Source: Numidum massiliense
Lineage (GTDB): Bacteria > Bacillota > Bacilli > Thermoactinomycetales > Novibacillaceae
Reading direction: 5' to 3'
Assembly (NCBI RefSeq): GCF_001375555.1
Contig: NZ_CTDZ01000009.1
Span: 2,101,758-2,165,757 of the forward strand
DNA: 64,000 nt
Positions within the stretch are counted from its first letter, which is position 1; the number at the start of each line of letters is the position of its first letter. This document shows positions 4,016 through 64,000 of the stretch, one piece after another. The notes under the pieces are model-generated. The model saw only the letters and a program-made list of their open reading frames with translations, was not told the DNA's origin and searched no databases. The translations under genes and the position numbers were made by a program.

Positions 4016-5359
4016 ATGCGCCATACGCGTACCGTATTTATTAAACGTTCTTTCTTAATAAGTTTTTGTCTCGTGTTAATCGGGCTGCCCTTCGATTCGT
4101 GCCTAGCGGAAACAGCCGCCGAGCCGCGCAATGAACGCACAAATTCGTTGCAACAGTTAATCGACGAAAGTCTTCCGCACGATACGCTTACAATCCCGAA
4201 CGGTACGTACGATGGACCGCTTACAATTGATAAGCCGCTCAAGTTGACGGCTACCGGTCGCGTTGTAATCCGTGCGACGAACGAGTTGCCAGCCGTGACG
4301 ATTCGCGGGCGCGATGTCACACTAGAGCGCGTCCAACTGACGAATCGGGAGAAAACAGCGCCATCGGCATTAAAAGTAAGCGGCACCGGACACGTGGTGC
4401 AACATGTTGTGATTGACACCGAGTCAATCGGCGTACAACTCGCTGATGCGAAGCTCGTGACGGTGAAAGACGTTACCGTTAATGGATTGACCCCGGAGAA
4501 TCAATTACATAAAGGAAACGGCATTGACTTAGACAATGCCCATAACAATACGATTATTGATTCGCAAATTGCGCGCGTCCAAGACGGCGTTTACGTCGAA
4601 CACAGTAACGATAACATTATCATGAGGAATACGATCACCCATTCGCGTTACGGTGTGCACCTCATGTTTACGAGCGGTACGAAACTCGTGCAAAACGATG
4701 CGTCCGAAAACATTACCGGTTTCATGATTATGGAGACGGAGCAAGCAACCGTCGGTAAAAACCGCGCGTACAACAATAAGCGTCACGTGCACGCACAGGG
4801 TATGTTGCTGTTTGAAACGTACGACTCGAATATCGCGAACAACGATCTCGTGGACAACAGCGTCGGACTCTATTTCGAAAGTGGCACGGACAACCGCGTC
4901 GCCTACAACGACATTAGGCAAAACTTTATTGCCTTACGCGTAAAAGACGCGAAAAAGAATGAGATCGTGGCCAACGACTTCGTGGCGAACGTCGTACAGG
5001 GACAAGGGATTGGCGCTGCAGACAACGCCATGCGCGCCAACTATTGGGACGATGCCGCCGTGTTAGATGTGGCGGGAGACGGAAAGAGCGCCTGGAGGCA
5101 CGCCATGGATCCGTACTTTTTAGTGGTCGTACAAAAACATCCCGCTTACCAATTACTGTTTCAAGCACCTGGCATGTTTTTTATCCAAAAACTGCTACGT
5201 AGTCCGGAAGAACGCATTTTTTTCGACGACGCGCCGCGGGTAAAACCGAACCGCGGGCAAGTAGCCGAACCGACTGACTCAGAGCGATCGGTCATTTTAT
5301 CGCTCAGTACATTATTACTCGGATGCGCGACACTATTTTACTTATTTGGGAGGAAATAA
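4016..5359 (+). CDS. nosD: NosD, periplasmic-type copper-site maturation protein
   Basis: 447 residues with a signal peptide (hydrophobic core about 10-30), a right-handed parallel beta-helix made of repeated CASH/PbH1 units (about 60-330; repeated N-x-I/V and G-V-x-x-x patterns such as GVYVEHSNDNIIMRNTITHS) and a C-terminal transmembrane anchor ending LLGCATLFYLFGRK. NosD works with NosF and NosY to assemble the CuZ cluster of nitrous oxide reductase, outside the membrane. A GAGAAGGAGTG ribosome binding site precedes ATG 4016. It is the first gene of the nosDLYF operon. No nosZ is adjacent on either side. Confidence 0.85.
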   Translation: MRHTRTVFIKRSFLISFCLVLIGLPFDSCLAETAAEPRNERTNSLQQLIDESLPHDTLTIPNGTYDGPLTIDKPLKLTATGRVVIRATNELPAVTIRGRDVTLERVQLTNREKTAPSALKVSGTGHVVQHVVIDTESIGVQLADAKLVTVKDVTVNGLTPENQLHKGNGIDLDNAHNNTIIDSQIARVQDGVYVEHSNDNIIMRNTITHSRYGVHLMFTSGTKLVQNDASENITGFMIMETEQATVGKNRAYNNKRHVHAQGMLLFETYDSNIANNDLVDNSVGLYFESGTDNRVAYNDIRQNFIALRVKDAKKNEIVANDFVANVVQGQGIGAADNAMRANYWDDAAVLDVAGDGKSAWRHAMDPYFLVVVQKHPAYQLLFQAPGMFFIQKLLRSPEERIFFDDAPRVKPNRGQVAEPTDSERSVILSLSTLLLGCATLFYLFGRK

Positions 5360-43579: not shown

Positions 43580-43868
43580 AAGAAAAAAGAAAAACCTCTC
43601 ATCCCTATTCAACACATAGAGACGAGAGGTTATTGCCTTCTCCCGCGGTACCACTCTTATTGCTTCCGTAGAAGCCTACTTTTCGTCACACGGACTTGAA
43701 GCGTTAACGGGCTTTTCCCGGCACACCCTACTAAGCGCACGTCGTTCAGGTGTACATCTACAAGGTCCGCTTCATCTACCGCCGGTGCATCGGGCTCTCA
43801 CCGTTCCCCGACTCGCTGCACACCGCCCGCGATAAACTACTGTCCTCATCATCGATCGCATCTGTCGT
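43580..43868 (-). promoter_or_regulatory. T-box riboswitch of argS
   Basis: The reverse strand carries the T-box sequence AGAGTGGTACCGCGG (43657-43643). The terminator stem AACCTCTC/GAGAGGTT with a T-rich tail lies at 43631-43581. Upstream is a stem I region with GCGAGTCGGGG ... CGGTGAGAGCCCG. A CGA triplet (Arg) directly follows a GAA at 43747-43742 and is the best specifier candidate. Uncharged tRNA-Arg should stabilise the antiterminator and let argS be read. Confidence 0.88.
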
Positions 43869-52975: not shown

Positions 52976-53011
52976 GACCTTCCCCTCCCGACACATATAA
53001 AAGAAACGCGG

Positions 53012-53623
53012 TTACGATCGCAAGCGTGTTAAATGAGCGACATCGTTAACCGCGCCAATCTCCCAACCCGTTTCCGCGCTGTACGTCACTTTCGTCACAC
53101 CCGTGTTGACGATCTTCGTTACGCCCGTCCCTAAGCGTTTGTCCGTCATTACGTGCAGGAAAGCATTAATCGTGCCTCCGTGGCTCACGGCGACAACCGT
53201 TTGCCCGGGATGGTTCCGCAGCAACGCCTCTAACTCCCCGATAATCCGCCGCTGTAACGCGGCAAACAATTCGACTCCGTACTTCCCACCGACCTGCCTG
53301 ACCTCCTCGCGATCCGGATAGCGGGCTGCGATTTGCTCCCACGTCAACCCTTCCCATTCCCCGTAACCGCGCTCGCGCAGACGAGCCCGCTTATGCACTT
53401 CCAGTCCGTGATGGTGCGCAATTTTTTCCGCTGTTTGCACCGCTCGTCCAAGGTCACTCGTATAAACGGCGTGAATCGGTGTACGTTGTAAGTAAGTACC
53501 TAACTTTTCTGCCTGCTTCATTCCTGTATCGTTTAACGGGATGTCCGTAAAACCTTGACAGCGCCGCTCACAGTTCCAATCCGTTTCCCCGTGGCGGACG
53601 AACAAACATTGTGTAGCAGTCAA
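53012..53623 (-). CDS. Histidine phosphatase family protein
   Basis: 203 residues, TTG start with GGGGAG about 9 bases upstream. The catalytic motif LFVRHGETDWN (7-17) with phospho-acceptor His and the second motif VAVSHGGTINAF mark the phosphoglycerate mutase/CobC/PhoE superfamily. RERGYGEWEGLTW holds the acidic catalytic residue. The substrate is not deducible; broad phosphatases and alpha-ribazole phosphatases are similar. It sits 16 bp after the lipoprotein gene, so they may be co-transcribed. A frameshifted relative lies 1.3 kb away. Confidence 0.85.
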   Translation of the reverse strand: MTATQCLFVRHGETDWNCERRCQGFTDIPLNDTGMKQAEKLGTYLQRTPIHAVYTSDLGRAVQTAEKIAHHHGLEVHKRARLRERGYGEWEGLTWEQIAARYPDREEVRQVGGKYGVELFAALQRRIIGELEALLRNHPGQTVVAVSHGGTINAFLHVMTDKRLGTGVTKIVNTGVTKVTYSAETGWEIGAVNDVAHLTRLRS

Positions 53624-53639
53624 ATATGTCAGCTCCCCA

Positions 53640-54815
53640 TTATTTTATGAGTTGGAACGTGCGCTTTTCCCCATCCCAGCGCCACTGTAACGTTTGCGTT
53701 AACTGCTCTTTCCCATCAAACACGTCGACGACTAGCAGTTCCGCTTCCCCCGGGACACTGCTCGGAACGAGCACGACTTCGTACTGACCGTCCGTCAGTT
53801 TGCCGCTGAGCGTATCCTTTTTTTTATTGAATATACCGCCCCGATCCGCCCGAACGACCAACTCGCCTTTCTGGTCAAGTAACACAAACTGATTCACGCG
53901 ACCGCTGTACAAAGGCGAGCCGTCACTAACCGGTTTCGCTTCGCCGTCGACCGCTAGTAGGCTGAGCGAGTTGGCCGACGACGGGTAGCGATAGACGATT
54001 ACCGGATGATCCAACCATTCCTTTAACGTTTTTTCTACCCTCTGCTCCGACGTATTCGCCTTTAAAAGCGCCGTATTGACCGTATACACGTACGGCGTCA
54101 CCGGTTCACCTTTTTTAGTCGTATATACCATAATGTTTACGCGATCCGCTATTTGTGGGTGAATGGCTAACATATACTGGTCGGCGATGCGACGCCCTTT
54201 TTCTAGCGGCGCCGGATCGTTGACGACAACCCACCGCTGTTCCTCTTCATCACTCACGACGATGCGAAAGGTATCGTCTTTTTTTGCCTCGATCTGGAAT
54301 TGGTACACACTTCCTCCTTCACCTTGTTGCTCGAAGATCGGCTGTTGTTGCATTGTATGTACCGGAGGTACTTTAATGCGGTACCCCATGTCGAGCGACT
54401 CTTGCGCCGTACTCAACAAGTCGATACTCACTTGGTCACCGCTCGTCAGTTGTTCCTTATTGGGCACAAACCCTTCGTAGACGACTTGATTGCGCACCGT
54501 ATGCGTAATGCCGACGAGAAACCCTCCCTTCTGCTTGTCGTAAACGACTGTCGCCACGTAATCTCCTTCATAACTATAGCCGAGCAAGTACGGCTGTTTG
54601 GTCACATACTTCGTAAACCCATCCGAAAAAATGAGTTTCTTCAGCGAGGGTACTTCGTTGTATTCGTAAGGGCGAAACGGCTCCTTTTTCGCGTTCTCTG
54701 CAGCATCGGTTTTCTCATTATCACTCGTGTCGGCCGCCTGTTCACAGCTGGTGACGGCGACAATGGTCACAATGGCCACAATAGCTGTAAAGAATGTCAC
54801 TAATAATCGTCGCAC
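53640..54815 (-). CDS. Lipoprotein of unknown function
   Basis: 391 residues. The signal sequence has a hydrophobic core (LLVTFFTAIVAIVTIVAVTS) and lipobox VTSC (Cys24). An acidic Asn/Lys-rich linker (about 25-46) leads to a beta-rich domain with KKLIFSDGFTKYVTKQPYLL, YSYEGDYVATVVYDKQKGGF and a C-terminal QTLQWRWDGEKRTFQLIK. I do not recognise the family. Predicted to be anchored at the outer face of the membrane. It precedes the histidine phosphatase gene by 16 bp on the same strand. Upstream lies a region of about 130 bp without genes. Confidence 0.65.
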   Translation of the reverse strand: MRRLLVTFFTAIVAIVTIVAVTSCEQAADTSDNEKTDAAENAKKEPFRPYEYNEVPSLKKLIFSDGFTKYVTKQPYLLGYSYEGDYVATVVYDKQKGGFLVGITHTVRNQVVYEGFVPNKEQLTSGDQVSIDLLSTAQESLDMGYRIKVPPVHTMQQQPIFEQQGEGGSVYQFQIEAKKDDTFRIVVSDEEEQRWVVVNDPAPLEKGRRIADQYMLAIHPQIADRVNIMVYTTKKGEPVTPYVYTVNTALLKANTSEQRVEKTLKEWLDHPVIVYRYPSSANSLSLLAVDGEAKPVSDGSPLYSGRVNQFVLLDQKGELVVRADRGGIFNKKKDTLSGKLTDGQYEVVLVPSSVPGEAELLVVDVFDGKEQLTQTLQWRWDGEKRTFQLIK

Positions 54816-54944
54816 GTGGACGCTCCTTTCCCGAGTGCGTGTAGCGTCTACTTTTATATATAGTACATAATATCACATGCTGATTCGCTTAAGTGGCATA
54901 AGATTGGCGGGAAACAAAAAGCAAAACTGTCTGGATCAGTCCTT

Positions 54945-55645
54945 TTATTGGCCCGCTTCTACGTAACTTAAATCACCGACCGTTTGTACATCGAACCTAC
55001 CGTCTCGGAAAACAATTTTAGTAACACTCGCATTGGCTAACTGATCGTTTTTGGCAGGGTCATCTGTCATAACCGAGATCATGGCCAAAATGGACACGCC
55101 GTGGCTAACTACGAGAACATTTCCGCCACCTTGCTTAGCTTGTTGTTTCGCAATGTGAGTAAGTTCCTCTTGCACGCGCCTACGAACGGTCTGCAAATCC
55201 TCGGCAAGACCCAACGTATCAAGTTTTTTAACGGTCGCCATCGCTTTTTCCAATCCGAAATTCGAGAAGTTTTTTATCGTCTCTACGAATGTCCTGTAAC
55301 CTAGTTCTCTACCAATGTCTCCCCACATTTTTTCCTCTAAATCACCTTCATAAATACCGAAGTACGCCTCCCAATTTTTTTATTTTCAGTTATAGTTAAC
55401 TCTCTTTGTCCTATTGAATCTAGGACAATCCGAGCTGTTTCACGCGCACGGCCTGAATCACTTGAGTATGCGGCATCGAAATGAACGTTTTCCTTTTTTA
55501 GACCTTTACCTAATTGTTCAGCTACCCTGACACCTTCGTCGGTAAGCGGCGTATCCGACCAACCTTGTACGCGGCGTACTGTGTTAAAATGCGTTTTACC
55601 GTGTCTTGTGACATATAAGACGACTTCGTTACCTTTCTTTTTCAT
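54945..55645 (-). pseudogene. Histidine phosphatase gene broken by a single-base frameshift
   Basis: The N-terminal part starts at ATG 55645 (GGGAGGATAT upstream) with VLYVTRHGKTHFNT, the catalytic His motif. It reads SSDSGRARETARIVLDSIG, then runs out of frame. The C-terminal part continues in another frame with EAYFGIYEGDLEEKMWGDIG and ends LVVSHGVSILAM...TVGDLSYVEAGQ at 54945. The two frames meet at a run of seven A (reverse strand; 55375-55381); one more A would restore a single product of about 233 residues (ENKNWEAYFG). It is either a recent pseudogene, a phase-variable run or a sequencing error. Confidence 0.8.
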
Positions 55646-55750
55646 CGCCCATATCCTCCCACTATTTCTCGTCATTTCGACATTCTCTCTTTAGGATATA
55701 CGCAATTTATTGCAAGAGGAAGATGTTGAACACCTCCCCTTGAATAGACG

Positions 55751-57628
55751 TTATTTCACGACAGTGAGTAAGCGATCGCCGACGTTGACAGTCGCGGGGT
55801 CAACGCTTACGATGTCGAGATAGTCATTCGTATTAGTTATGACAATCGGCGTTGTAAGGTCGTACCCTTCCTTCGCAATTGCTTCAAGGTCACACGTCGC
55901 TATGAGCTGTCCTTTTTCCACGGTATCTCCTTGTTTCACTTTTGGGGAAAAATATTGGCCTTCGAGCTGTACAGTATCGATCCCGATGTGAATCAATATT
56001 TCTACACCACTGTCTGATCTGATTCCGAACGCATGTCCTGTAGGGAACACTGTGGTCACTTTCCCCTTCACAGGTGCGTGCACATGCCCCTCGCTAGGAA
56101 CGACCGCCAATCCTTTTCCCATCCCTTGTGAGGAAAAGACGGCGTCTTTCACTTCTTCTAACGGTACGACTTTCCCCGAGAAGGGGCTGGAAATAATGGT
56201 ACTTTCCATAATTCCCGTATGATTTTCGCCTTTCCCTTGTCCGTTTTTGCCCTGTCCTTTTGACTGTTCACTTTGCGCATCTTCTTCCACGTCTTTATAG
56301 CCGAACAAATAAGTGAGGACTGCCGCCAAGAAGAAGGAGACGACAATCGCCACGACAAACATGCCGAATCCTTCCCCGTAAAAGACGGGCAGGCTCGCTA
56401 ACCCCGGTACAGCAAACGACTTCGAAGCAGCACCTGACATCCCTGAGATCGCGCCGCCAACCGCCCCAGCGATTGCACCCATGATAAACGGCTCTTTGTG
56501 AGGAAGGGTTACACCGTAAACAGCCGGTTCCGTAATGCCGAATATGCCGGCAATCGTCGCCGGTGCGGCGATTGCCCTTACTTTTTGCTGTTTCGACTTC
56601 AACAGGACGCCTAAGGCCGCCCCCGCTTGTGCAAATACAGTAGGTGCCACGAGGGCAGTAAATGTATCTGAGCCGAATTGCGTTAAATTGTTTATCCCAA
56701 TCGGGATTAGGCCCCAGTGCAAGCCGAAAATAACGAAGATTTGATTGAAAAAGCCTAAGAACATCCCCGCTAAAATTGCACTGTTATCGTAAATCCACGA
56801 ATACCCCGTCGCCAACCAGGCGCTCACGTACGTACCGAAGGGCCCGAAGACGATTAAGGTTAACGGTACCATCACGACAAGCAACATTAAAGGAGTAAAG
56901 AACGTCCGTACCGTCGAATGAAAAAAGTTGTTGAGCACCTTTTCTAACTTCGACATTACATAGACGGCGAGAACGATCGGAATGACCGATGTGGCGTAAT
57001 TCATATACACGACCGGAATACCGAAAAAGGAAAGTTTCCCTGCCTCGCCAAAAGCTTCAATCAATTGCGGGTGCAGCAACGCACCGGCAATGACGACGGC
57101 AACGTACGGATTAGCCCCGAACTTTCTCCCCGAGGTAAAGGCGAGCAACATGGGCAAGAAGTAGAACAAACTGTCGGCGGTGGCGTTTAATATTTGGTAC
57201 GTGCCACTTTCTACGTTTAGCCAACCGGCAGCGGCCACTACAATTAAAAGCCCTTTTAAAATACCTACTCCAGCCATCGCGCCGAGTAACGGCGTGAAAA
57301 TGGCGGAAATAATGTCGATCGCCTGGTGAAGAATATTCCCTTTTTCTCCAGCTTCCTCTTCACCTTTTCCCCCGTCGTCATCGAGCTGAGTGATCTTCAT
57401 TATTTCGCGATAGACGTCACTCACCTCATTGCCGACGACGATTTGAAATTGGCCGCCGCTGATCATCACTTGAATGACGCCCGGCATCTGCTCGATGCGC
57501 GTTTTATCCGCTTTGTCCCTGCTCTTTAGCCGAAATCGCAACCGCGTGGCACAGTGGACGAGTGAGCGTACATTTTCCTCGCCGCCGACTCCCTTCATAA
57601 TGTCGCGGGCTAATTTGGCATGATCCAT
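55751..57628 (-). CDS. bglP: Beta-glucoside-type PTS permease, EIIBCA fusion (BglP-like)
   Basis: 625 residues. Domain order IIB-IIC-IIA: the IIB phospho-Cys26 (VHCATRLRF) at the N-terminus, about ten helices (110-450; GITEPAVYGVTLP loop) and the IIA with phospho-His in ILIHIGIDTV near 558. A Gln/Gly/Lys-rich linker (about 455-475) separates IIC and IIA. It takes up and phosphorylates a beta-glucoside or related disaccharide. It is the last gene behind the DUF871 gene (36 bp) and is controlled through the RAT/terminator at 58908-58993. Confidence 0.9.
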   Translation of the reverse strand: MDHAKLARDIMKGVGGEENVRSLVHCATRLRFRLKSRDKADKTRIEQMPGVIQVMISGGQFQIVVGNEVSDVYREIMKITQLDDDGGKGEEEAGEKGNILHQAIDIISAIFTPLLGAMAGVGILKGLLIVVAAAGWLNVESGTYQILNATADSLFYFLPMLLAFTSGRKFGANPYVAVVIAGALLHPQLIEAFGEAGKLSFFGIPVVYMNYATSVIPIVLAVYVMSKLEKVLNNFFHSTVRTFFTPLMLLVVMVPLTLIVFGPFGTYVSAWLATGYSWIYDNSAILAGMFLGFFNQIFVIFGLHWGLIPIGINNLTQFGSDTFTALVAPTVFAQAGAALGVLLKSKQQKVRAIAAPATIAGIFGITEPAVYGVTLPHKEPFIMGAIAGAVGGAISGMSGAASKSFAVPGLASLPVFYGEGFGMFVVAIVVSFFLAAVLTYLFGYKDVEEDAQSEQSKGQGKNGQGKGENHTGIMESTIISSPFSGKVVPLEEVKDAVFSSQGMGKGLAVVPSEGHVHAPVKGKVTTVFPTGHAFGIRSDSGVEILIHIGIDTVQLEGQYFSPKVKQGDTVEKGQLIATCDLEAIAKEGYDLTTPIVITNTNDYLDIVSVDPATVNVGDRLLTVVK

Positions 57629-57664
57629 CTCATTCTCCTCCTCTATTCAGTAAGCGGCATAAAT

Positions 57665-58759
57665 TTATCGCTTATACTCAGTAAACGAAAATTTGCCCCA
57701 CGGCTTAATATAATCGATCAAGAACACTTCCTCTTCGCGGATCCGCCCAACGACGTTCGTCTTACCCGAGTTGTCCATATTACGGCGCGCAATTTGCAGC
57801 TCGCCGGCGTATTGCCCGTACAAGTCGTTTTCGATTAAAATGTCTCCGCGCTGAATCGGCTGCGTATGATGCGGCGGGAACGATTGTCCGCGGAACTTCA
57901 TCCGACTTTGCGACGAGCGGATCATGTAATCCGACACATCGCCGCGATAAAAGTGAAATTCGTCAAAAACGATCTTCCGTTCTAAATCGGTAACCCCTTC
58001 GTGTAACGTCACCGCAAGCGAGATGCTTTCTCGATTGACCTCACTTAAGCGCTGTAACTCCGCCTCAGAAGCGTAAGCGTTGCCGACGATGACGTCCTCG
58101 ATTAATCCCGTCGCGTACAAATGCTTCGCTTGCACGTCGATCGGTAGGGTCCGGTGCATTTCGAGAGTTGGCAACCCTTCGACGATCGGCCACGGACCAA
58201 AATCGGCTGCTTGCGAGGAGACGAAGGCGGCTGTGCGCAAACCGTGTGCCTTGAACTTTTTACTGCAATCAATAAAAAAGTCGTAAGATAGTCCAGCGTA
58301 TTTATGCGGGTAAAAGTTGTGACACCCGATTAATCGGGTACGGTTCGGTTCGTGGCACATGATGTTATCTACGTACCGCGTCCCCATACTCATATTGATT
58401 TCGATGTTCAACCCGTAAGGATTGTACGTCATGTTCGCCTCTTCCAACCCAGAAAATCCCATGTCGAGGCGAATGCCGGCTACCCCTAACTCGTGAAAAA
58501 AAGACAAGTCGTCAAACGAAAGCTGTAACTCTTTTAACACGCGCGGGCTAATGTCGACGATCACTTCCATCCCTAATCGGTTCGCACAGGCGAGTGACTC
58601 TTTAAAGTCTGCCAAAACCTTATCTTTGTTCCCGTCGACGGACAACAAACACGTAAATACGCGCTCAAAACCGTAGCGATGAGCCGTTTCCAAGTAATTG
58701 ACATCTCGCGTTGCATCCGATTGATGCGGGTAAATCGACACACCTAAATGCTTTTTCAA
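57665..58759 (-). CDS. DUF871 / MupG-like 6-phospho-glycosidase
   Basis: 364 residues, TTG start with AGGAGGAG upstream. LGVSIYPHQSDATRDVNYLE, RLDMGFSGLEEANMTYNPYG, ELPTLEMHR-type EGLPTLEMHRTL and DVIVGNAYASEAEL belong to the DUF871 family. The S. aureus member MupG cleaves N-acetylmuramic acid 6-phosphate-GlcNAc taken up by a PTS. Here it is paired with a BglP-type PTS and no murQ is seen, so the substrate may be a different 6-phospho-disaccharide. The C-terminal part (about 245-364) is a cyclophilin-like domain of the family. Confidence 0.82.
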   Translation of the reverse strand: MKKHLGVSIYPHQSDATRDVNYLETAHRYGFERVFTCLLSVDGNKDKVLADFKESLACANRLGMEVIVDISPRVLKELQLSFDDLSFFHELGVAGIRLDMGFSGLEEANMTYNPYGLNIEINMSMGTRYVDNIMCHEPNRTRLIGCHNFYPHKYAGLSYDFFIDCSKKFKAHGLRTAAFVSSQAADFGPWPIVEGLPTLEMHRTLPIDVQAKHLYATGLIEDVIVGNAYASEAELQRLSEVNRESISLAVTLHEGVTDLERKIVFDEFHFYRGDVSDYMIRSSQSRMKFRGQSFPPHHTQPIQRGDILIENDLYGQYAGELQIARRNMDNSGKTNVVGRIREEEVFLIDYIKPWGKFSFTEYKR

Positions 58760-58907
58760 GATTTATTCTCCTCCTGTAAGTGCCTAATTTTTCTCAATTG
58801 CGTAGTGCGTATGTTGATGACCAACAGATCGATGCGAGCTAATTAAGCGATGCGAATGTCGTGATGATCCCTCTCACTCTCCTCCTTTAATCGACAAGTG
58901 GCGAAAA

Positions 58908-58993
58908 TAAAAAAACCTAAATTTGAGAGCAGAAATATCGCTACGGATATTCCTCACAAACTTAGGTTTTGCCTGCCGAACAGTAACAATCCT
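58908..58993 (-). promoter_or_regulatory. LicT-type RAT antiterminator and terminator before the sugar genes
   Basis: The reverse strand reads GGATTGTTACTG...GGCAGGCAAAACC (58993-58964), the ribonucleic antiterminator of the BglG/LicT family. It overlaps a terminator whose arms AAACCTAAGTTTG and CAAATTTAGGTTT end in a T-run (58968-58908). LicT binding should permit transcription of the DUF871 and PTS genes. Confidence 0.88.
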
Positions 58994-59022
58994 TATGCAA
59001 TTGTCTGGTCGATCCAACTACT

Positions 59023-59051
59023 ATAATATATTGTCTAGGGGTAACAATCAA
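59023..59051 (-). promoter_or_regulatory. Promoter of the DUF871-PTS operon
   Basis: On the reverse strand TTGATT (59051-59046), 17 bp, TATTAT (59028-59023), about 30 bp before the RAT. This permits transcription of the sugar genes independently of read-through from licT. Confidence 0.6.
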
Positions 59052-59193
59052 TTTTATTAACATTATGTCACTAGTATGTCATATTGTCTGTCATTACATT
59101 GTCACGCCTTACACAGTCGGCCTACAGACGGTTGTTCGTAACACGGTGACCTGATCCCGCTGAGATTGACGTTGATTCGCACGCCGCACACCG

Positions 59194-60060
59194 TTACTCA
59201 TCCGTCGCTTCCTTCACTTCCTGCCGACTTGTCACGCGATGAATATGCAGCGTTAAATATATTTTTTCGTCAGCGGAAATCACCCAGTCATACGTCCGTT
59301 CCAAAAACAAGGCGATCCTTTCACTCGCCTGAAACGCCTTCTCATACTTATTTCTCACCTGTTCATACAAAAAATTATCCAGTTGCCCGCACAACTTCAC
59401 TTCTTTTCGCACATACCGCAGAGCAAAAAAACGGAGATGAGTGAGGAAGCGCTCGTAACTGACAGAGCCCTCGTTTAATTCCATATGGTAGTGGTATTTG
59501 ACGATACTTAAAATACTATCGACTATTTTCGTCACTTGCACCATATAGTCGATCCCTTCGCCGCAATTTTGACCGTTAACGAGATGCATGGCAATGAATC
59601 CCGCTTCGTCCTCGGGCAAACTGACTCCCGTTTCCTCTTCTATAAGATTGAGAGCGGTGAGAGCAATTTGAAATTCTTTTTTGTAGTACTTCCTAATCTC
59701 CCACAACAGCACATTGCGGATTAGTACCCCTTGTTCATGCCGATTGATGGCAAAGCTTAAGTGATCGGTCAGTGCGACATATAAATAGTCGTCTAACGGC
59801 GTTTCCAACTGCGACTTCGCATAAGAAATAATTCGGTCTGACAGGGCCAAGTACTGTTCCGGGATTTCCTGTAGCAAATCAGCTAGCTTGTCCGATACGC
59901 CTGGTTGATGAAAAATGAAGGTCTTTTCGATTTTGGCTGGGTCGATCACCTCCCCGGCACGCTTCTGAAAGGTTAGTCCTCGCCCCATCACAACCATTTC
60001 CTGTCCTTGTTCATTTTGCGTCAAAGCGACATTGTTGTTGAACACCTTTTTTATTTTCAT
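59194..60060 (-). CDS. licT: LicT/BglG-family transcription antiterminator
   Basis: 288 residues. The RNA-binding CAT domain is at 1-55 (KVFNNNVALTQNEQGQEMVV, MGRGLTFQKRAG). Two PTS-regulation domains follow, with phosphorylatable histidines at His100, His159 (PRD1) and His208, His272/274 (PRD2), matching LicT positions. In the presence of substrate the BglP permease stops phosphorylating PRD1, and the dimer binds RAT RNA. It has its own RAT in the leader (60196-60225), so it is autoregulated, and a second one precedes the DUF871-PTS genes. Confidence 0.92.
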   Translation of the reverse strand: MKIKKVFNNNVALTQNEQGQEMVVMGRGLTFQKRAGEVIDPAKIEKTFIFHQPGVSDKLADLLQEIPEQYLALSDRIISYAKSQLETPLDDYLYVALTDHLSFAINRHEQGVLIRNVLLWEIRKYYKKEFQIALTALNLIEEETGVSLPEDEAGFIAMHLVNGQNCGEGIDYMVQVTKIVDSILSIVKYHYHMELNEGSVSYERFLTHLRFFALRYVRKEVKLCGQLDNFLYEQVRNKYEKAFQASERIALFLERTYDWVISADEKIYLTLHIHRVTSRQEVKEATDE

Positions 60061-60141
60061 TTAAATCGTCCTTATATTACTATTATTAACACAACCCAAC
60101 TCGGCACGTATAGGATCAACCGATGTCAACAAATAGAAACT

Positions 60142-60225
60142 AAAAAAACCCAAATTTGCACAAAAAGACCACGACCGATCTTCTCCCACAAACTCAGGTT
60201 TTGCCTGCTGAACAGTAACAATCCC
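60142..60225 (-). promoter_or_regulatory. LicT-type RAT antiterminator and terminator in the licT leader
   Basis: Reverse strand GGATTGTTACTG...AGCAGGCAAAACC (60225-60196), overlapping the terminator AACCTGAGTTTG...CAAATTTGGGTT plus T-run (60200-60142). It is nearly identical to the second RAT at 58964-58993. Confidence 0.88.
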
Positions 60226-60233
60226 TTTTTAAT

Positions 60234-60248
60234 TGTAACGCTTACTTT
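60234..60248 (-). promoter_or_regulatory. Possible cre (CcpA) site downstream of the licT promoter
   Basis: The near-palindrome AAGTAAGCGTTACAA has the central AANCGNT pattern of cre but two mismatches to the outer consensus. Lying just after the expected start point, it would act as a roadblock for carbon repression. Confidence 0.4.
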
Positions 60249-60260
60249 TCCTACACCTTC

Positions 60261-60289
60261 ACCATACCTTAAACAATACGTGAAGTCAA
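60261..60289 (-). promoter_or_regulatory. Promoter of licT
   Basis: On the reverse strand TTGACT (60289-60284), a 17-bp spacer and TATGGT (60266-60261). Confidence 0.65.
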
Positions 60290-60376
60290 GTTTTTGCCGC
60301 CGAACCGTTGGACAATATCCCCCAACTTAAGGTAGCATAAGAGAAAACGGATTAAGAAACGGAAAGAGGGCAATCG

Positions 60377-61123
60377 ATGGACAACCGTTTATTAGACGTG
60401 AGCCAACTGACAGGTGGTTACGGTAGCAACCGGCAAGTCATTCACGATATTTCTTTTCACGTGCGCGAACGCGAACTGGTCGGGCTAATCGGTATGAACG
60501 GCGCCGGAAAAAGCACGACGATCAAGCACATTCTCGGCCTGATGCAACCCGTTTCTGGCACGATTACGTTAAAGGGGCGGACACTGCAAGAAGATACGAC
60601 CGCCTTTCGTTCGCAAATCGCCTACATACCGGAAACGCCTAGGCTTTACGAAGAGCTGACGCTGTACGAGCACCTCGAACTGACGGCGATGGCTTACCAT
60701 CTCGACGAAGCGACGTTTAAGACGCGTGCAGACGAACTGCTAAACGAATTTAAAATGAGTAAAATGGTGAAATGGTTCCCAAGTACGTTTTCTAAAGGTA
60801 TGCAACAAAAAGTGATGGTCATGTGTGCCTTTCTCGTCCGACCGGCGCTATTGATCGTCGACGAACCGTTTGTCGGACTCGACCCGCTCGCCACCCACTC
60901 GCTGTTGAACCTTTTTTCCGAATTAAAAGAAGCTGGCACAGGCATTCTCATGTCGACACACATTTTGCCGACGGCGGAAAAGTACGGCGATCATTTCGTG
61001 TTGTTGCACGGCGGACGAGCGGTGCTCAAAGGGACGCTCGCGGACATGCAGGCGCAAGCGAAACGGCCACAAGCGAGTTTAGAAGATTTGTTCATGCTCG
61101 TCGCAAAGGATCGGTTGCCATGA
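60377..61123 (+). CDS. ecsA: EcsA-like ABC ATPase
   Basis: 248 residues, ATG with AAAGAGGG upstream. Walker A GMNGAGKST (39-47), signature TFSKGMQQKVMVM and Walker B LLIVDEPFVGLDP are complete, and AYIPETPRLYEELTLYEHL is characteristic of EcsA. With EcsB it forms a transporter that in B. subtilis affects protein secretion, intramembrane proteolysis and competence. The stop overlaps the ecsB start (ATGA). The usual upstream hit gene is replaced here by the licT region. Confidence 0.87.
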   Translation: MDNRLLDVSQLTGGYGSNRQVIHDISFHVRERELVGLIGMNGAGKSTTIKHILGLMQPVSGTITLKGRTLQEDTTAFRSQIAYIPETPRLYEELTLYEHLELTAMAYHLDEATFKTRADELLNEFKMSKMVKWFPSTFSKGMQQKVMVMCAFLVRPALLIVDEPFVGLDPLATHSLLNLFSELKEAGTGILMSTHILPTAEKYGDHFVLLHGGRAVLKGTLADMQAQAKRPQASLEDLFMLVAKDRLP

Positions 61124-62346
61124 ACAGTAGCGAACGTATTTTTAAACGGCGGTTTGGCGAAGCAGCGGCCAAAGGTATCCGTTACTTTATGCTCGTCGCC
61201 GGCGGCGGCGGGATGCCGATCTTGTTCATCCTCGCCGCGGTCGGTGTCGTATACGGTTACGTCTCCTTTCTAAAGTGGCTACCGACTGACTTTCCAGCCT
61301 ACGCACTGATGGCTGTCGTCGTGTCGCTCGCCCTTACGCAAACGTCGGTACGCACATTTATCCAACCGGCCGACGTCGTGTTTTTGCTCCCGCTGGAAAG
61401 CGAAATGCAGCATTATTTTCGCCGCTGCTTGACGTACAGCGTATTTATGCAAGTCGTGAAGGTTGGCGCCGTAATGGCACTGTTGCTTCCGCTGTACCGC
61501 GCCCGCATTGGCGATGAAACGGGTTTTCTCATCGCCCTCGCCTTTGTCGCACTGTTCAAAGCGTGGAACGTGTACGCCCACTTTCGCGAGCTACACTTAC
61601 AAAACGGTCGCGGTGTACACATCGCGTTCCGCTTGGCTGCCAACGTGCTGCTCACCGTCCCTTTGTTTTACGGTGGATCCGTCTTGCTGTACACACTGAT
61701 CGCCGCGCTGATTCTCGCCATGCTCACACTGTACTATCGTAAAGTGGGCGCAGGCAATCGTTACCCGTGGTATACGTTCGTCGCCTTGGAGCAAAGGCGC
61801 GTCAATGCCTTGTACACGTTCGCCAGCTTTTTTGTCGACGTGCCACACATTTTACAGCGGACAAAAGCACGGGCGTGGCTCGCCGTGCTCCTGCAGCGAA
61901 TTCCTTACGGGGCGCGCAACACGCACCTTTATTTGTACGCGCGGACGTTTTTGCGCAGTGGCGAGTACTTCAGCCTCTTTTTGCGTTTAACGACCATTAC
62001 GGCGATCGTCATCGTGTTCATTCCGACCGAGTGGGCCGTCTTTGCTGCCTTCCTCGTCGGCTTGACGCTTACCGGTATCCAACTGCCCGCCGTGCGGGCA
62101 AAGCATCTGCACGCGTTCTGGCTAAAGCTGTACCCGGTCGAGCAGGCGGAGGACAAACGGGCGCTCGCCCAATTAGTATGTATCGCTCTCGCCGTGCAAA
62201 GTGTGATCGTGAGCGCCGTTTACTTAATCGTCCACCAAGGCCCGTTACTTGCGCTCGCGCTCGCCTCTTGTGGCCTGCTGTTCAGTTATGCATTTAGTTT
62301 TGTTTATTTGCCGGGGCGCTTGAAAGATGAAAGTTACGAGGTCTAG
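61120..62346 (+). CDS. ecsB: EcsB-like ABC permease
   Basis: 408 residues from ATG 61120 in the ecsA stop; the long upstream frame is a shadow of ecsA. It has the EcsB start SERIFKRRFGEAAAKGIRYF, then FIQPADVVFLLPLESEMQHY, several helices and the central RRVNALYTFASFFVDVPHIL. It is the membrane partner of EcsA. The downstream 160 bp hold the terminator of the convergent glycosidase gene. Confidence 0.86.
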   Translation: MNSSERIFKRRFGEAAAKGIRYFMLVAGGGGMPILFILAAVGVVYGYVSFLKWLPTDFPAYALMAVVVSLALTQTSVRTFIQPADVVFLLPLESEMQHYFRRCLTYSVFMQVVKVGAVMALLLPLYRARIGDETGFLIALAFVALFKAWNVYAHFRELHLQNGRGVHIAFRLAANVLLTVPLFYGGSVLLYTLIAALILAMLTLYYRKVGAGNRYPWYTFVALEQRRVNALYTFASFFVDVPHILQRTKARAWLAVLLQRIPYGARNTHLYLYARTFLRSGEYFSLFLRLTTITAIVIVFIPTEWAVFAAFLVGLTLTGIQLPAVRAKHLHAFWLKLYPVEQAEDKRALAQLVCIALAVQSVIVSAVYLIVHQGPLLALALASCGLLFSYAFSFVYLPGRLKDESYEV

Positions 62347-62383
62347 GGAAATTATAGAGTTAGAGAGACACTTTAGGATGCGG

Positions 62384-62433
62384 AAGAAAAAAGGGGCGGA
62401 GGAAAGGTATTTATACCTGATGATCCCCCGCCC
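62384..62433 (-). terminator. Terminator of the GH85-type gene
   Basis: Reading the reverse strand, GGGCGG (62433 side) pairs with CCGCCC, with an inner AGGTATAAATACCT hairpin, and TTTTTTC follows. It lies about 70 bp past the stop at 62505. Confidence 0.65.
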
Positions 62434-62504
62434 TATTCGCGAGCCAACTCTCGGAGCCACTAAACGGAAGTGACAGATCCGTTACTTATTTGACCACGAG
62501 CTAA

Positions 62505-64000
62505 TCATTTCACAAGCCCGTGTACTTCAAACTCGTAAATGCGCGCCGCGGTATCCCCTCCCTGGGTCGGCTTGGAAATGTAGAGCCGCGCATAGCGCGC
62601 TTCCGTTAACGGAATGGCGTGTTTACTTACCCCCTGTGCATTTCCATTCACGCAGGCGACATCTGTCCAAGATTCACCGTCGCTACTTAATTGGATGCGA
62701 TAGTCACTCGTGTTAAACGCCGCAGGCTCTCCACCTTCCTCTGCATGCTTAATGACAAATTCACTTATTTTATGCATTTCTCCTAAGTCGACCGCTACCC
62801 AGTGGGGGGCGTCTCCGACCGCGCACCATTTACTGTTATCGGTCACCTTCCCGTCAAAAGCGAGATCTGGCTTCTCGCTGCCAACGAAACTGCTGGCAGT
62901 CGCTTTTTTGCCGAGCGCTAAGTTCTTCACGCCGCCCTTCGCTTCCTTCGTGACGGTAATGAACGCTTCTTTTGTGATGACATCTTCGCCTACCGCATTT
63001 TTAGCCGTTAACGTTACAGGGTAAACTCCCTCTTCTTTGTAACGGACGACTGGCTTTTTCTCCGTACTCGTCGTCGGTTCACCTCCCGGGAAGTGCCACA
63101 CAACTTCCTGTGTCACTTCCGACGACTGATCGAAAAATTGCACCTCTTCACCAGGAGCGACGACGGTTTGATTTGCAGTAAATGCAGCAGCAGGCCGTGG
63201 GTAAGCTGGCCACTCGAACGTTGCACGCGCGCGTTTCCCCCGGCGGTCGTATTTGTCTAACGCGACAATTTCTAACGTCGTCTTTTGTTCAGCGCTCGAC
63301 TGGCGCTTCATTTGTGGCACGTAATAGACGTCGTTCGGCGTCGCCCCGAGAAACTCTTTTTTCCCGTTCGACTGAATACGGTATACCTCATACCGTGCGG
63401 CGTTTTTCACCGGTTGCCACGCGACGCGCGCATCGGCGTAAATACCTTCTTTAAACGCGTTGTCGATCGTCACGTTAGACACGCGAGGTAATTTTTTCAA
63501 TGAAGCTTTATTTTTTATCGACAGTTGCCCGACGTTGAGCGAAAAATCATCGATCGGCTTTTTGCTGTCAAACTTGAGCGAGACCGCCGTAATCGTCTTG
63601 CCGCGATACTTATTTAACGACACTTTTTTCGTATCCCACTTATTTCCCTTTAACGGACCCGTTTTGAGGAACACAAACTCACCGGGTTTGTCCGCGAATT
63701 CGAGGCCGACTTTCATCTCTGCACGTTTAAAGGGCGTCTTATAAGTGACGGACAACTTCGTATGTTTCTCCACTTTCAAGTCTGTGCGGTACAATTTGAG
63801 GTGCGTCGCGTTTTCCCGGCTTAAATCGCCCGTTACTTTCAACGAGCTGCCCCCGTAGTACGCGCGATCGAAGTCGAGGCTCGGTTTCAACGCTTTGCCT
63901 TCACTGTCCGCGATCCACCGCCACGTCGGCAAGACGTCCTGCAAACTGCGGTTGTGCCACTCTTTCTCACGCAATACTTTCCCGTCGACAGCGAAAAACT
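62505..64000 (-). CDS. Endo-beta-N-acetylglucosaminidase (GH85-type), C-terminal part
   Basis: The frame runs off the right edge of the window; 498 codons are visible. It begins within FFAVDGKVLREKEWHNRSLQ, then DVLPTWRW, the stretch that follows the catalytic barrel in GH85 enzymes. After it come a galactose-binding-like beta domain (FDRAYYGGSSLKVTGDLSRE, ...), a fibronectin-III-like domain (ARYEVYRIQSNGKKEF), a PKD domain (FDQSSEVTQEVVWHFPGGEP) and a C-terminal F5/8C (CBM32) domain (ATASSFVGSEKPDLAFDGKV). Such secreted enzymes cleave the chitobiose core of N-glycans. The catalytic residues lie outside the window. Confidence 0.8.
   Translation of the reverse strand, partial: FFAVDGKVLREKEWHNRSLQDVLPTWRWIADSEGKALKPSLDFDRAYYGGSSLKVTGDLSRENATHLKLYRTDLKVEKHTKLSVTYKTPFKRAEMKVGLEFADKPGEFVFLKTGPLKGNKWDTKKVSLNKYRGKTITAVSLKFDSKKPIDDFSLNVGQLSIKNKASLKKLPRVSNVTIDNAFKEGIYADARVAWQPVKNAARYEVYRIQSNGKKEFLGATPNDVYYVPQMKRQSSAEQKTTLEIVALDKYDRRGKRARATFEWPAYPRPAAAFTANQTVVAPGEEVQFFDQSSEVTQEVVWHFPGGEPTTSTEKKPVVRYKEEGVYPVTLTAKNAVGEDVITKEAFITVTKEAKGGVKNLALGKKATASSFVGSEKPDLAFDGKVTDNSKWCAVGDAPHWVAVDLGEMHKISEFVIKHAEEGGEPAAFNTSDYRIQLSSDGESWTDVACVNGNAQGVSKHAIPLTEARYARLYISKPTQGGDTAARIYEFEVHGLVK

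Follow-up and report, generated by a model that had tools for sequence, protein, structure and literature searches.

The switch logic of LicT and BglP is established biology, and BglH of Bacillus subtilis is a GH1 enzyme. The LicT-bglPH operon of B. subtilis and the licT-bglP system of Streptococcus mutans are described as combining LicT, a ribonucleic antiterminator (RAT) that overlaps a terminator, and a beta-glucoside PTS, with BglH serving B. subtilis as phospho-beta-glucosidase (PMC1489936). In bglGTH of Clostridium acetobutylicum, one RAT stands in front of the antiterminator gene and another in front of the PTS gene, and deletions have been used to test them; as far as its description goes, the operon includes bglH and no GH170 gene (PMC12628678).

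The GH170 family is reported to have one biochemically characterised member, MupG (PMC12791066), which cleaves MurNAc6P-GlcNAc and in Staphylococcus aureus belongs to the MurP/MupG/MurQ/MurR system, where a 6-phospho-glycosidase of this family accompanies a PTS transporter (PMC6262408). A second role is known by genetics: ChbE, the GH170 protein of the chb cluster of Lacticaseibacillus paracasei, is needed for growth on PTS-imported diacetylchitobiose. That cluster has a cellobiose-type PTS and the repressor ChbR, with no LicT-type RAT in its description, and a BglG-family regulator is listed among the genes of chb-related clusters in the legend of Fig. 8 of that report (PMC12791066). In CELO2 of Bacillus coagulans, a DUF871 gene is found in a cellobiose-linked PTS operon described as having no 6-phospho-beta-glucosidase gene; EIIA, EIIB and EIIC are encoded separately, and the authors classed its PRD regulator as DeoR-like (PMC6271610). 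A literature search, mostly at the level of titles and abstracts and with sparse coverage of subscription papers, found no LicT-controlled GH170 operon.

In the 64,000-nucleotide stretch of Numidum massiliense DNA analyzed here (the window), the minus strand reads promoter, RAT1, terminator, licT, promoter, RAT2, terminator, DUF871, bglP (Table 1). The position of DUF871 between RAT2 and bglP in place of a GH1 gene is unusual, whereas the double-RAT licT layout was already known. RATs stand before the antiterminator gene and the PTS unit as in C. acetobutylicum, but the gene content differs, with a GH170 gene and no bglH. As in S. aureus, a GH170-family protein is paired with a PTS transporter, but MurQ, MurP and MurR are missing and the enzyme falls into another group of the family tree. 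The locus also differs from chb in its LicT/RAT control and from CELO2 in both transporter and regulator. We consider it quite probable that this is a LicT antitermination operon that captured a GH170 enzyme, with the DUF871 protein predicted to cleave a 6-phospho-disaccharide imported by BglP.

Table 1. Positions of the genes and control elements of the licT-DUF871-bglP locus in the window.
Feature	Position	Strand	Basis
Putative licT promoter, TTGACT-17-TATGGT	60261..60289	(-)	Consensus scan, 9/12; 35 nt ahead of RAT1
RAT1, LicT-type ribonucleic antiterminator ahead of licT	60226-60197	(-)	Model R1, 51.1 bits; alignment A2
Terminator 1, U-tract, 3' arm CAAAACC common with RAT1	60143..60203	(-)	Leader fold
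licT, CAT RNA-binding domain and two PRDs	59194..60060	(-)	NF046042, 364 against cut-off 300; CAT_RBD and PRD
Putative DUF871-bglP promoter, TTGTTA-16-TATAGT	59020..59047	(-)	Consensus scan, 9/12; 26 nt ahead of RAT2
RAT2, LicT-type antiterminator ahead of DUF871-bglP	58994-58965	(-)	Model R1, 51.9 bits
Terminator 2, U-tract, 3' arm common with RAT2	58904..58971	(-)	Leader fold
Decayed 3' end of rpiR, its last part with a Shine-Dalgarno-like stretch now ahead of DUF871	58765..58869	(-)	blastn and tblastn to L004 rpiR
DUF871 (MupG_N and MupG_C, GH170), putative 6-phospho-glycosidase, TTG start	57665..58759	(-)	Pfam, over cut-off
bglP-like beta-glucoside PTS EIIBCA	55751..57628	(-)	TIGR01995, 756 against 614.7 bits

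The first-pass annotation had proposed two near-identical RATs, each overlapping its own terminator, one serving licT and the other DUF871 and bglP, and both model matches and leader folds bore this out. The covariance model R1 was built from alignment A2, in which RAT1 and RAT2 stand alongside eight such elements from five further genomes. Since the window RATs sit in this ten-sequence model, their own scores are partly built in, and the argument is carried by the gap to all other matches and by the leader folds. Within the window, RAT1 and RAT2 matched with E values of about 1e-14 and the next match reached 13 bits. They are also the only full-length matches in the 3.76-Mb genome, where the third match (22.1 bits) spans model positions 8-25 only.

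The RAT1 leader contains a strong hairpin followed by a U-tract (-32.7 kcal/mol, z -4.8, with 0 of 200 shuffles as good), and so does the RAT2 leader (-27.4 kcal/mol, z -3.1, 2 of 200). When folding was started at CAAAACC, the values were -28.6 for terminator 1 and -23.2 for terminator 2. The CAAAACC arm of each RAT is also part of the terminator that it overlaps, so that only one of the two structures can form at a time. At both leaders, then, a consensus RAT has an arm in common with an intrinsic terminator, which is what defines a RAT/terminator switch. The RAT hairpins alone were no more stable than shuffled sequences (z -0.96 and 0.09); hairpins of this type are thought to require bound protein. 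Across the ten aligned sequences, the pairs hardly vary and none has a compensatory change. A simple terminator scan missed both terminators and returned 3 sites elsewhere, against 5.6 expected, and the Rfam matches fell below gathering scores (25.7 against 80 for bglG-cis-reg at RAT2, and 28.6 against 60 for SpF19_sRNA at RAT1).

A promoter for each of the two units had been proposed as well. The candidate sites are well placed and agree with the consensus at 9 of 12 positions, but the number of such sites is near chance (10 in 5 kb, with 6.3 +/- 2.2 expected). It is the position ahead of the RATs, not the site count, that suggests a separate promoter per unit. CcpA cre sites were considered and dropped: 32 matches with at most one mismatch occur in the window, against 33.9 expected, and all of them lie clear of the RATs and of the putative promoters.

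By its domains, the equivalog cut-off and its histidines, the window LicT is a BglG/SacY-type antiterminator, for which RNA binding and control by the PTS are predicted. Residues H100, H159, H208 and H272, which we take to be the regulatory sites of LicT, are invariant in all seven aligned antiterminators, the window protein included. Elsewhere in the genome (G000:C9:2801644-2801808; L010, L225), a lone CAT_RBD match with an internal stop and a 62-aa frame is possibly a decayed antiterminator.

The PTS protein lies far under the cut-off of the MurP model PRK09586 (152.9 against 516). When sets of five GH1-paired BglPs were used to define fixed columns (127-141), the window protein departed at 8-13 of them, and the same test on GH1-paired BglPs themselves gave 9-23 departures; its power is low, for a BglP with no GH1 neighbor (L228) scores alike (10-17). 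By this weak column test, BglP resembles an ordinary carrier of beta-glucosides. Behind bglP, at 54945-55675 on the minus strand of the window, a gene that by eye resembles histidine phosphatases is split into two frames, either as a broken gene or through a sequencing error.

Seven BglP relatives were fetched with their flanks, and a GH1 gene stood beside bglP in six, so GH1 is the usual partner of bglP. Three loci (L218, L220 and L222) read RAT-licT-RAT-bglP-GH1, and L219 reads licT-RAT-bglP-GH1. Two RATs around one antiterminator are the standard layout, and the double RAT was ruled out as a novelty by these relatives and by the published bglGTH of C. acetobutylicum. At L228, bglP and licT occur with no GH1 gene seen within 11 kb; the absence of GH1 beside bglP is thus not unique to the window. 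Six GH1 queries found no match, intact or fossil, at E 0.01 in positions 53001-62500 of the window, and the GH1 gene that goes with bglP in the canonical LicT-bglPH operon is therefore missing from this locus. The only GH1 gene of the genome sits in another cluster, and at least two GH4 genes are also found elsewhere.

The DUF871 gene is placed directly behind RAT2 and 36 bp ahead of bglP. By its MupG_N and MupG_C domains, its product is a member of the GH170/MupG family, with putative 6-phospho-glycosidase activity, and the solved structure nearest to it by sequence, 1x7f, covers the fold. Neighborhoods of DUF871 elsewhere were compared in a named set (the best 80 of 581 confirmed candidates, which represents only nearer kin of the window gene), at another 120 places, drawn from a class census of 398 genomes that is rich in a few genera, and in 17 relatives' loci. 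The three sets overlap in genomes and their counts are not independent; three weak DUF871 places, one each in G296, G233 and G021, were left out of the census. Neighboring ORFs with a minimum length of 80 aa (70 for the 17 relatives' loci) were named by BLASTP at E 1e-8 (1e-5 for relatives, 1e-6 for BglP loci) against a small reference set drawn from these loci, genes unlike the references staying unnamed, and the counts for L040-L056 were made without AnmK or kinase references.

No bglP-type EIIBCA was found beside DUF871 in the 80 named loci (best 80 of 581), the 120 census loci or the 17 relatives' loci. The nearest thing to it was a 159-aa EIIA-like ORF at L255. At one locus of these sets, L128, a short BglG-type antiterminator of 291 aa, 36% identical to the one at L005 (see below), lies about 1.6 kb from DUF871 beside other PTS genes.

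Among the best 80 of 581 loci, the neighbors were a Lac-family PTS (75 loci), a BadF-type kinase (55), AnmK (44), GH4 (42), RpiR (33) and MurQ (31), with MurQ or AnmK present in 46. Of the census loci, 30 belong to the window's group, and there these neighbors were rarer (Lac-family PTS in 25, kinase in 12, MurQ/AnmK in 9, GH4 in 8). The remaining census consists of 89 MupG-type loci, of which 86 have MurP, 87 MurQ and 60 RpiR, and one DUF871 fragment (L290) that is in neither group.

Clusters with varying subsets of Lac-family PTS, DUF871, GH4, AnmK, BadF-type kinase and MurQ genes are widespread (L057-L136; e.g., L041:434-6746). Their content suggests that MurNAc-GlcNAc and GlcNAc-anhydroMurNAc are both recycled by way of the PTS, the two phospho-glycosidases being DUF871 and GH4. 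A side group of DUF871 loci (L053, L054, L055, L153 and L161) carries amidohydrolase-like, DgaE/DgaF-like and sugar kinase genes, named by reading the sequences, hinting at yet another substrate. A DUF871 gene of L. plantarum that is listed near a DgaE gene (PMC9019972) fits this side group.

The genome of N. massiliense carries three DUF871 genes. The copy at L004 is 89% identical to the window copy in protein and 85% in DNA, and the two pair with an SH-aLRT of 100 in a 108-row tree made by a quick method. The gene order at L004, GH4-celC-celB-rpiR / lacA-DUF871-murQ, is like that of many loci of its group, and the murQ directly after DUF871 passes TIGR00274 (365.9 against 302). Between the two DUF871 genes dN is 0.06 and dS is 0.57-0.73; at a dN/dS of about 0.1, the window gene is, by this measure, under purifying selection. 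Its end branch is about 3.6-fold longer (0.10 versus 0.028), by which the window DUF871 evolves faster than its L004 twin. Of 61 columns in which at least 97% of 119 relatives agree, three are changed in the window copy (D221E, T283S and Y289F), all conservatively, and none in the L004 copy.

The stretch just ahead of the window DUF871 retains the end of an rpiR gene. At the ribosome-binding end, 27 of 28 nt are identical to rpiR of L004, and tblastn aligned the remnant with residues 237-292 (E 8e-5). Its local score was 59, and the best of 1000 dinucleotide shuffles reached 32 (0 of 1000 as good); without the last 38 nt, the score was 43 against a shuffle maximum of 35 (again 0 of 1000). The RpiR-like gene of another cluster (L223) scored 20 against the remnant. 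As the rpiR tail of L004 stands ahead of celB and not of DUF871, copying alone would not give the window order, and a rearrangement is required too. The simplest history would be that DUF871 and an rpiR tail were duplicated from the rpiR/Lac-PTS/GH4/DUF871/murQ type of cluster of the same genome, joined, and fixed behind the LicT switch. The direction of transfer is read from the remnant and from the L004 copy being in surroundings typical of its group, not from an intermediate. The LicT-DUF871-bglP arrangement has been seen in one genome only, the one other genome of the family among the relatives searched (G001) having no DUF871. The exchange of regulators is unusually legible, with the tail of the repressor left in place and an antiterminator switch in front of it. 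Moreover, 89%-identical GH170 paralogues with different transporters and regulators in one genome offer a clean test of whether specificity follows the transporter.

Sequence shows the two switches, the order of the genes, the lack of a GH1 gene, the pair of DUF871 paralogues, the remnant of rpiR and purifying selection. For the working of the operon, the phosphorylation logic can be modeled on LicT/BglP biology, in particular on S. mutans as far as it is described (PMC1489936) and on C. acetobutylicum. When no substrate is present, phosphorylated BglP and the PTS would hold LicT inactive, and both leaders would terminate. Uptake and 6-phosphorylation of a disaccharide by BglP would release LicT, which would then dimerize, bind RAT1 and RAT2, and block the overlapping terminators, allowing expression of licT and of DUF871-bglP. 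By analogy with family precedents (MupG, ChbE and the cellobiose-linked operon), the DUF871 protein would cut the imported 6-phospho-disaccharide in the cytoplasm, which is the job of the GH1 enzyme BglH in the canonical operon.

A separate operon of the same genome bears on the question of substrate. At L005:4804-9751 (G000:C8), genes for a MurP-like EIIBC, DUF871, MurQ and a GlcT/LicT-like antiterminator stand in a row, the antiterminator scoring under the curated cut-offs of both the GlcT and the LicT models. RAT-like sequences, each with a strong terminator, stand ahead of the murP-like gene (5036-5112, terminator z -5.8) and of the divergently oriented EIIA gene (4878-4804, terminator z -5.9). 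Ahead of murP, the upper RAT hairpin agrees with the LicT RAT consensus without a mismatch across 18 nt. Taken by themselves, the RAT-like hairpins are weakly folded (z -0.03 and -1.7). This MurP-like/DUF871/MurQ operon may be under its own BglG-type antiterminator, such a gene being absent from all 89 MupG-type census loci. The L005 and window DUF871 proteins are 31-32% identical and belong to the two large groups of the family in our set.

The wiring had been set apart from that of the MurR-controlled MurP/MupG system, and this holds: no intact MurP, MurQ or RpiR gene is found at the window locus. With a separate MurP-like/DUF871/MurQ operon at L005 and the window DUF871 in the other large group, the locus is, by gene content, not simply the MupG system of the genome under new regulation. 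The further proposal of another 6-phospho-disaccharide substrate is plausible but goes no further, since the beta-glucoside type of BglP and the faster-evolving enzyme copy speak for it and the nearest twin adjoins murQ. That twin, together with the MurQ or AnmK genes found in 46 of the best 80 of 581 loci of its group, means that an amino-sugar disaccharide containing MurNAc or GlcNAc is possible. A changed substrate is made plausible by the seemingly ordinary BglP (a weak test), the longer branch, the three residue changes and the redundancy of a third MurNAc-GlcNAc enzyme. That a GH170 enzyme from a cell-wall-sugar recycling cluster replaced GH1 in a LicT/BglP operon, and that its substrate changed after duplication and regulator swap, is a reading we offer tentatively, at less than an even chance. 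As to the sugar itself, we infer that a beta-glucoside-type disaccharide is the leading candidate, if short of a majority, ahead of a GlcNAc-containing one such as chitobiose; MurNAc-GlcNAc would be less likely than either, and some other disaccharide the least likely.

The operon could instead serve re-regulated peptidoglycan recycling, BglP importing MurNAc-GlcNAc, DUF871 yielding MurNAc-6P and GlcNAc, and MurQ being supplied from two other loci. The murQ beside the nearest enzyme copy, the frequency of MurQ or AnmK in the group and the conservative nature of the residue changes all agree with this. However, the window locus has no murQ, murP or murR, its transporter belongs to the beta-glucoside subfamily and is far from MurP, its DUF871 is the faster-evolving copy, and the genome already has both a MurP-like/DUF871/MurQ operon and an rpiR/Lac-PTS/DUF871/MurQ cluster, which together make such recycling unlikely. 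Somewhat more doubtful still is an ordinary beta-glucoside operon that lost bglH, with DUF871 as a passenger and the GH1 or GH4 genes at other loci supplying a phospho-beta-glucosidase in trans. Such genes do exist (one GH1 and at least two GH4), BglP gives no sign of change in the weak column test, and the bglP locus at L228 likewise has no GH1 neighbor; a passenger, however, sits poorly with the placement of DUF871 between RAT2 and bglP and with its low dN/dS. An assembly or annotation artifact behind the gene pairing is very improbable, as the window lies inside one 3.6-Mb contig, the licT, DUF871 and bglP frames are open, and the remnant and the duplication are mutually consistent. The capture of a GH170 enzyme by a LicT operon remains the preferred reading.

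Beyond EcsB-like ABC transporter genes, the window contains at 62505-63998, on the minus strand, a gene with GH85_C, F5/8 type C and PKD domains (also L006), which is possibly a secreted endo-hexosaminidase. This GH85-type gene was considered as a clue to the substrate and discarded because divergent ecsAB-like genes lie in between. A T-box leader is present at 43615-43861 on the minus strand of the window (Rfam score 100.1, gathering score 93).
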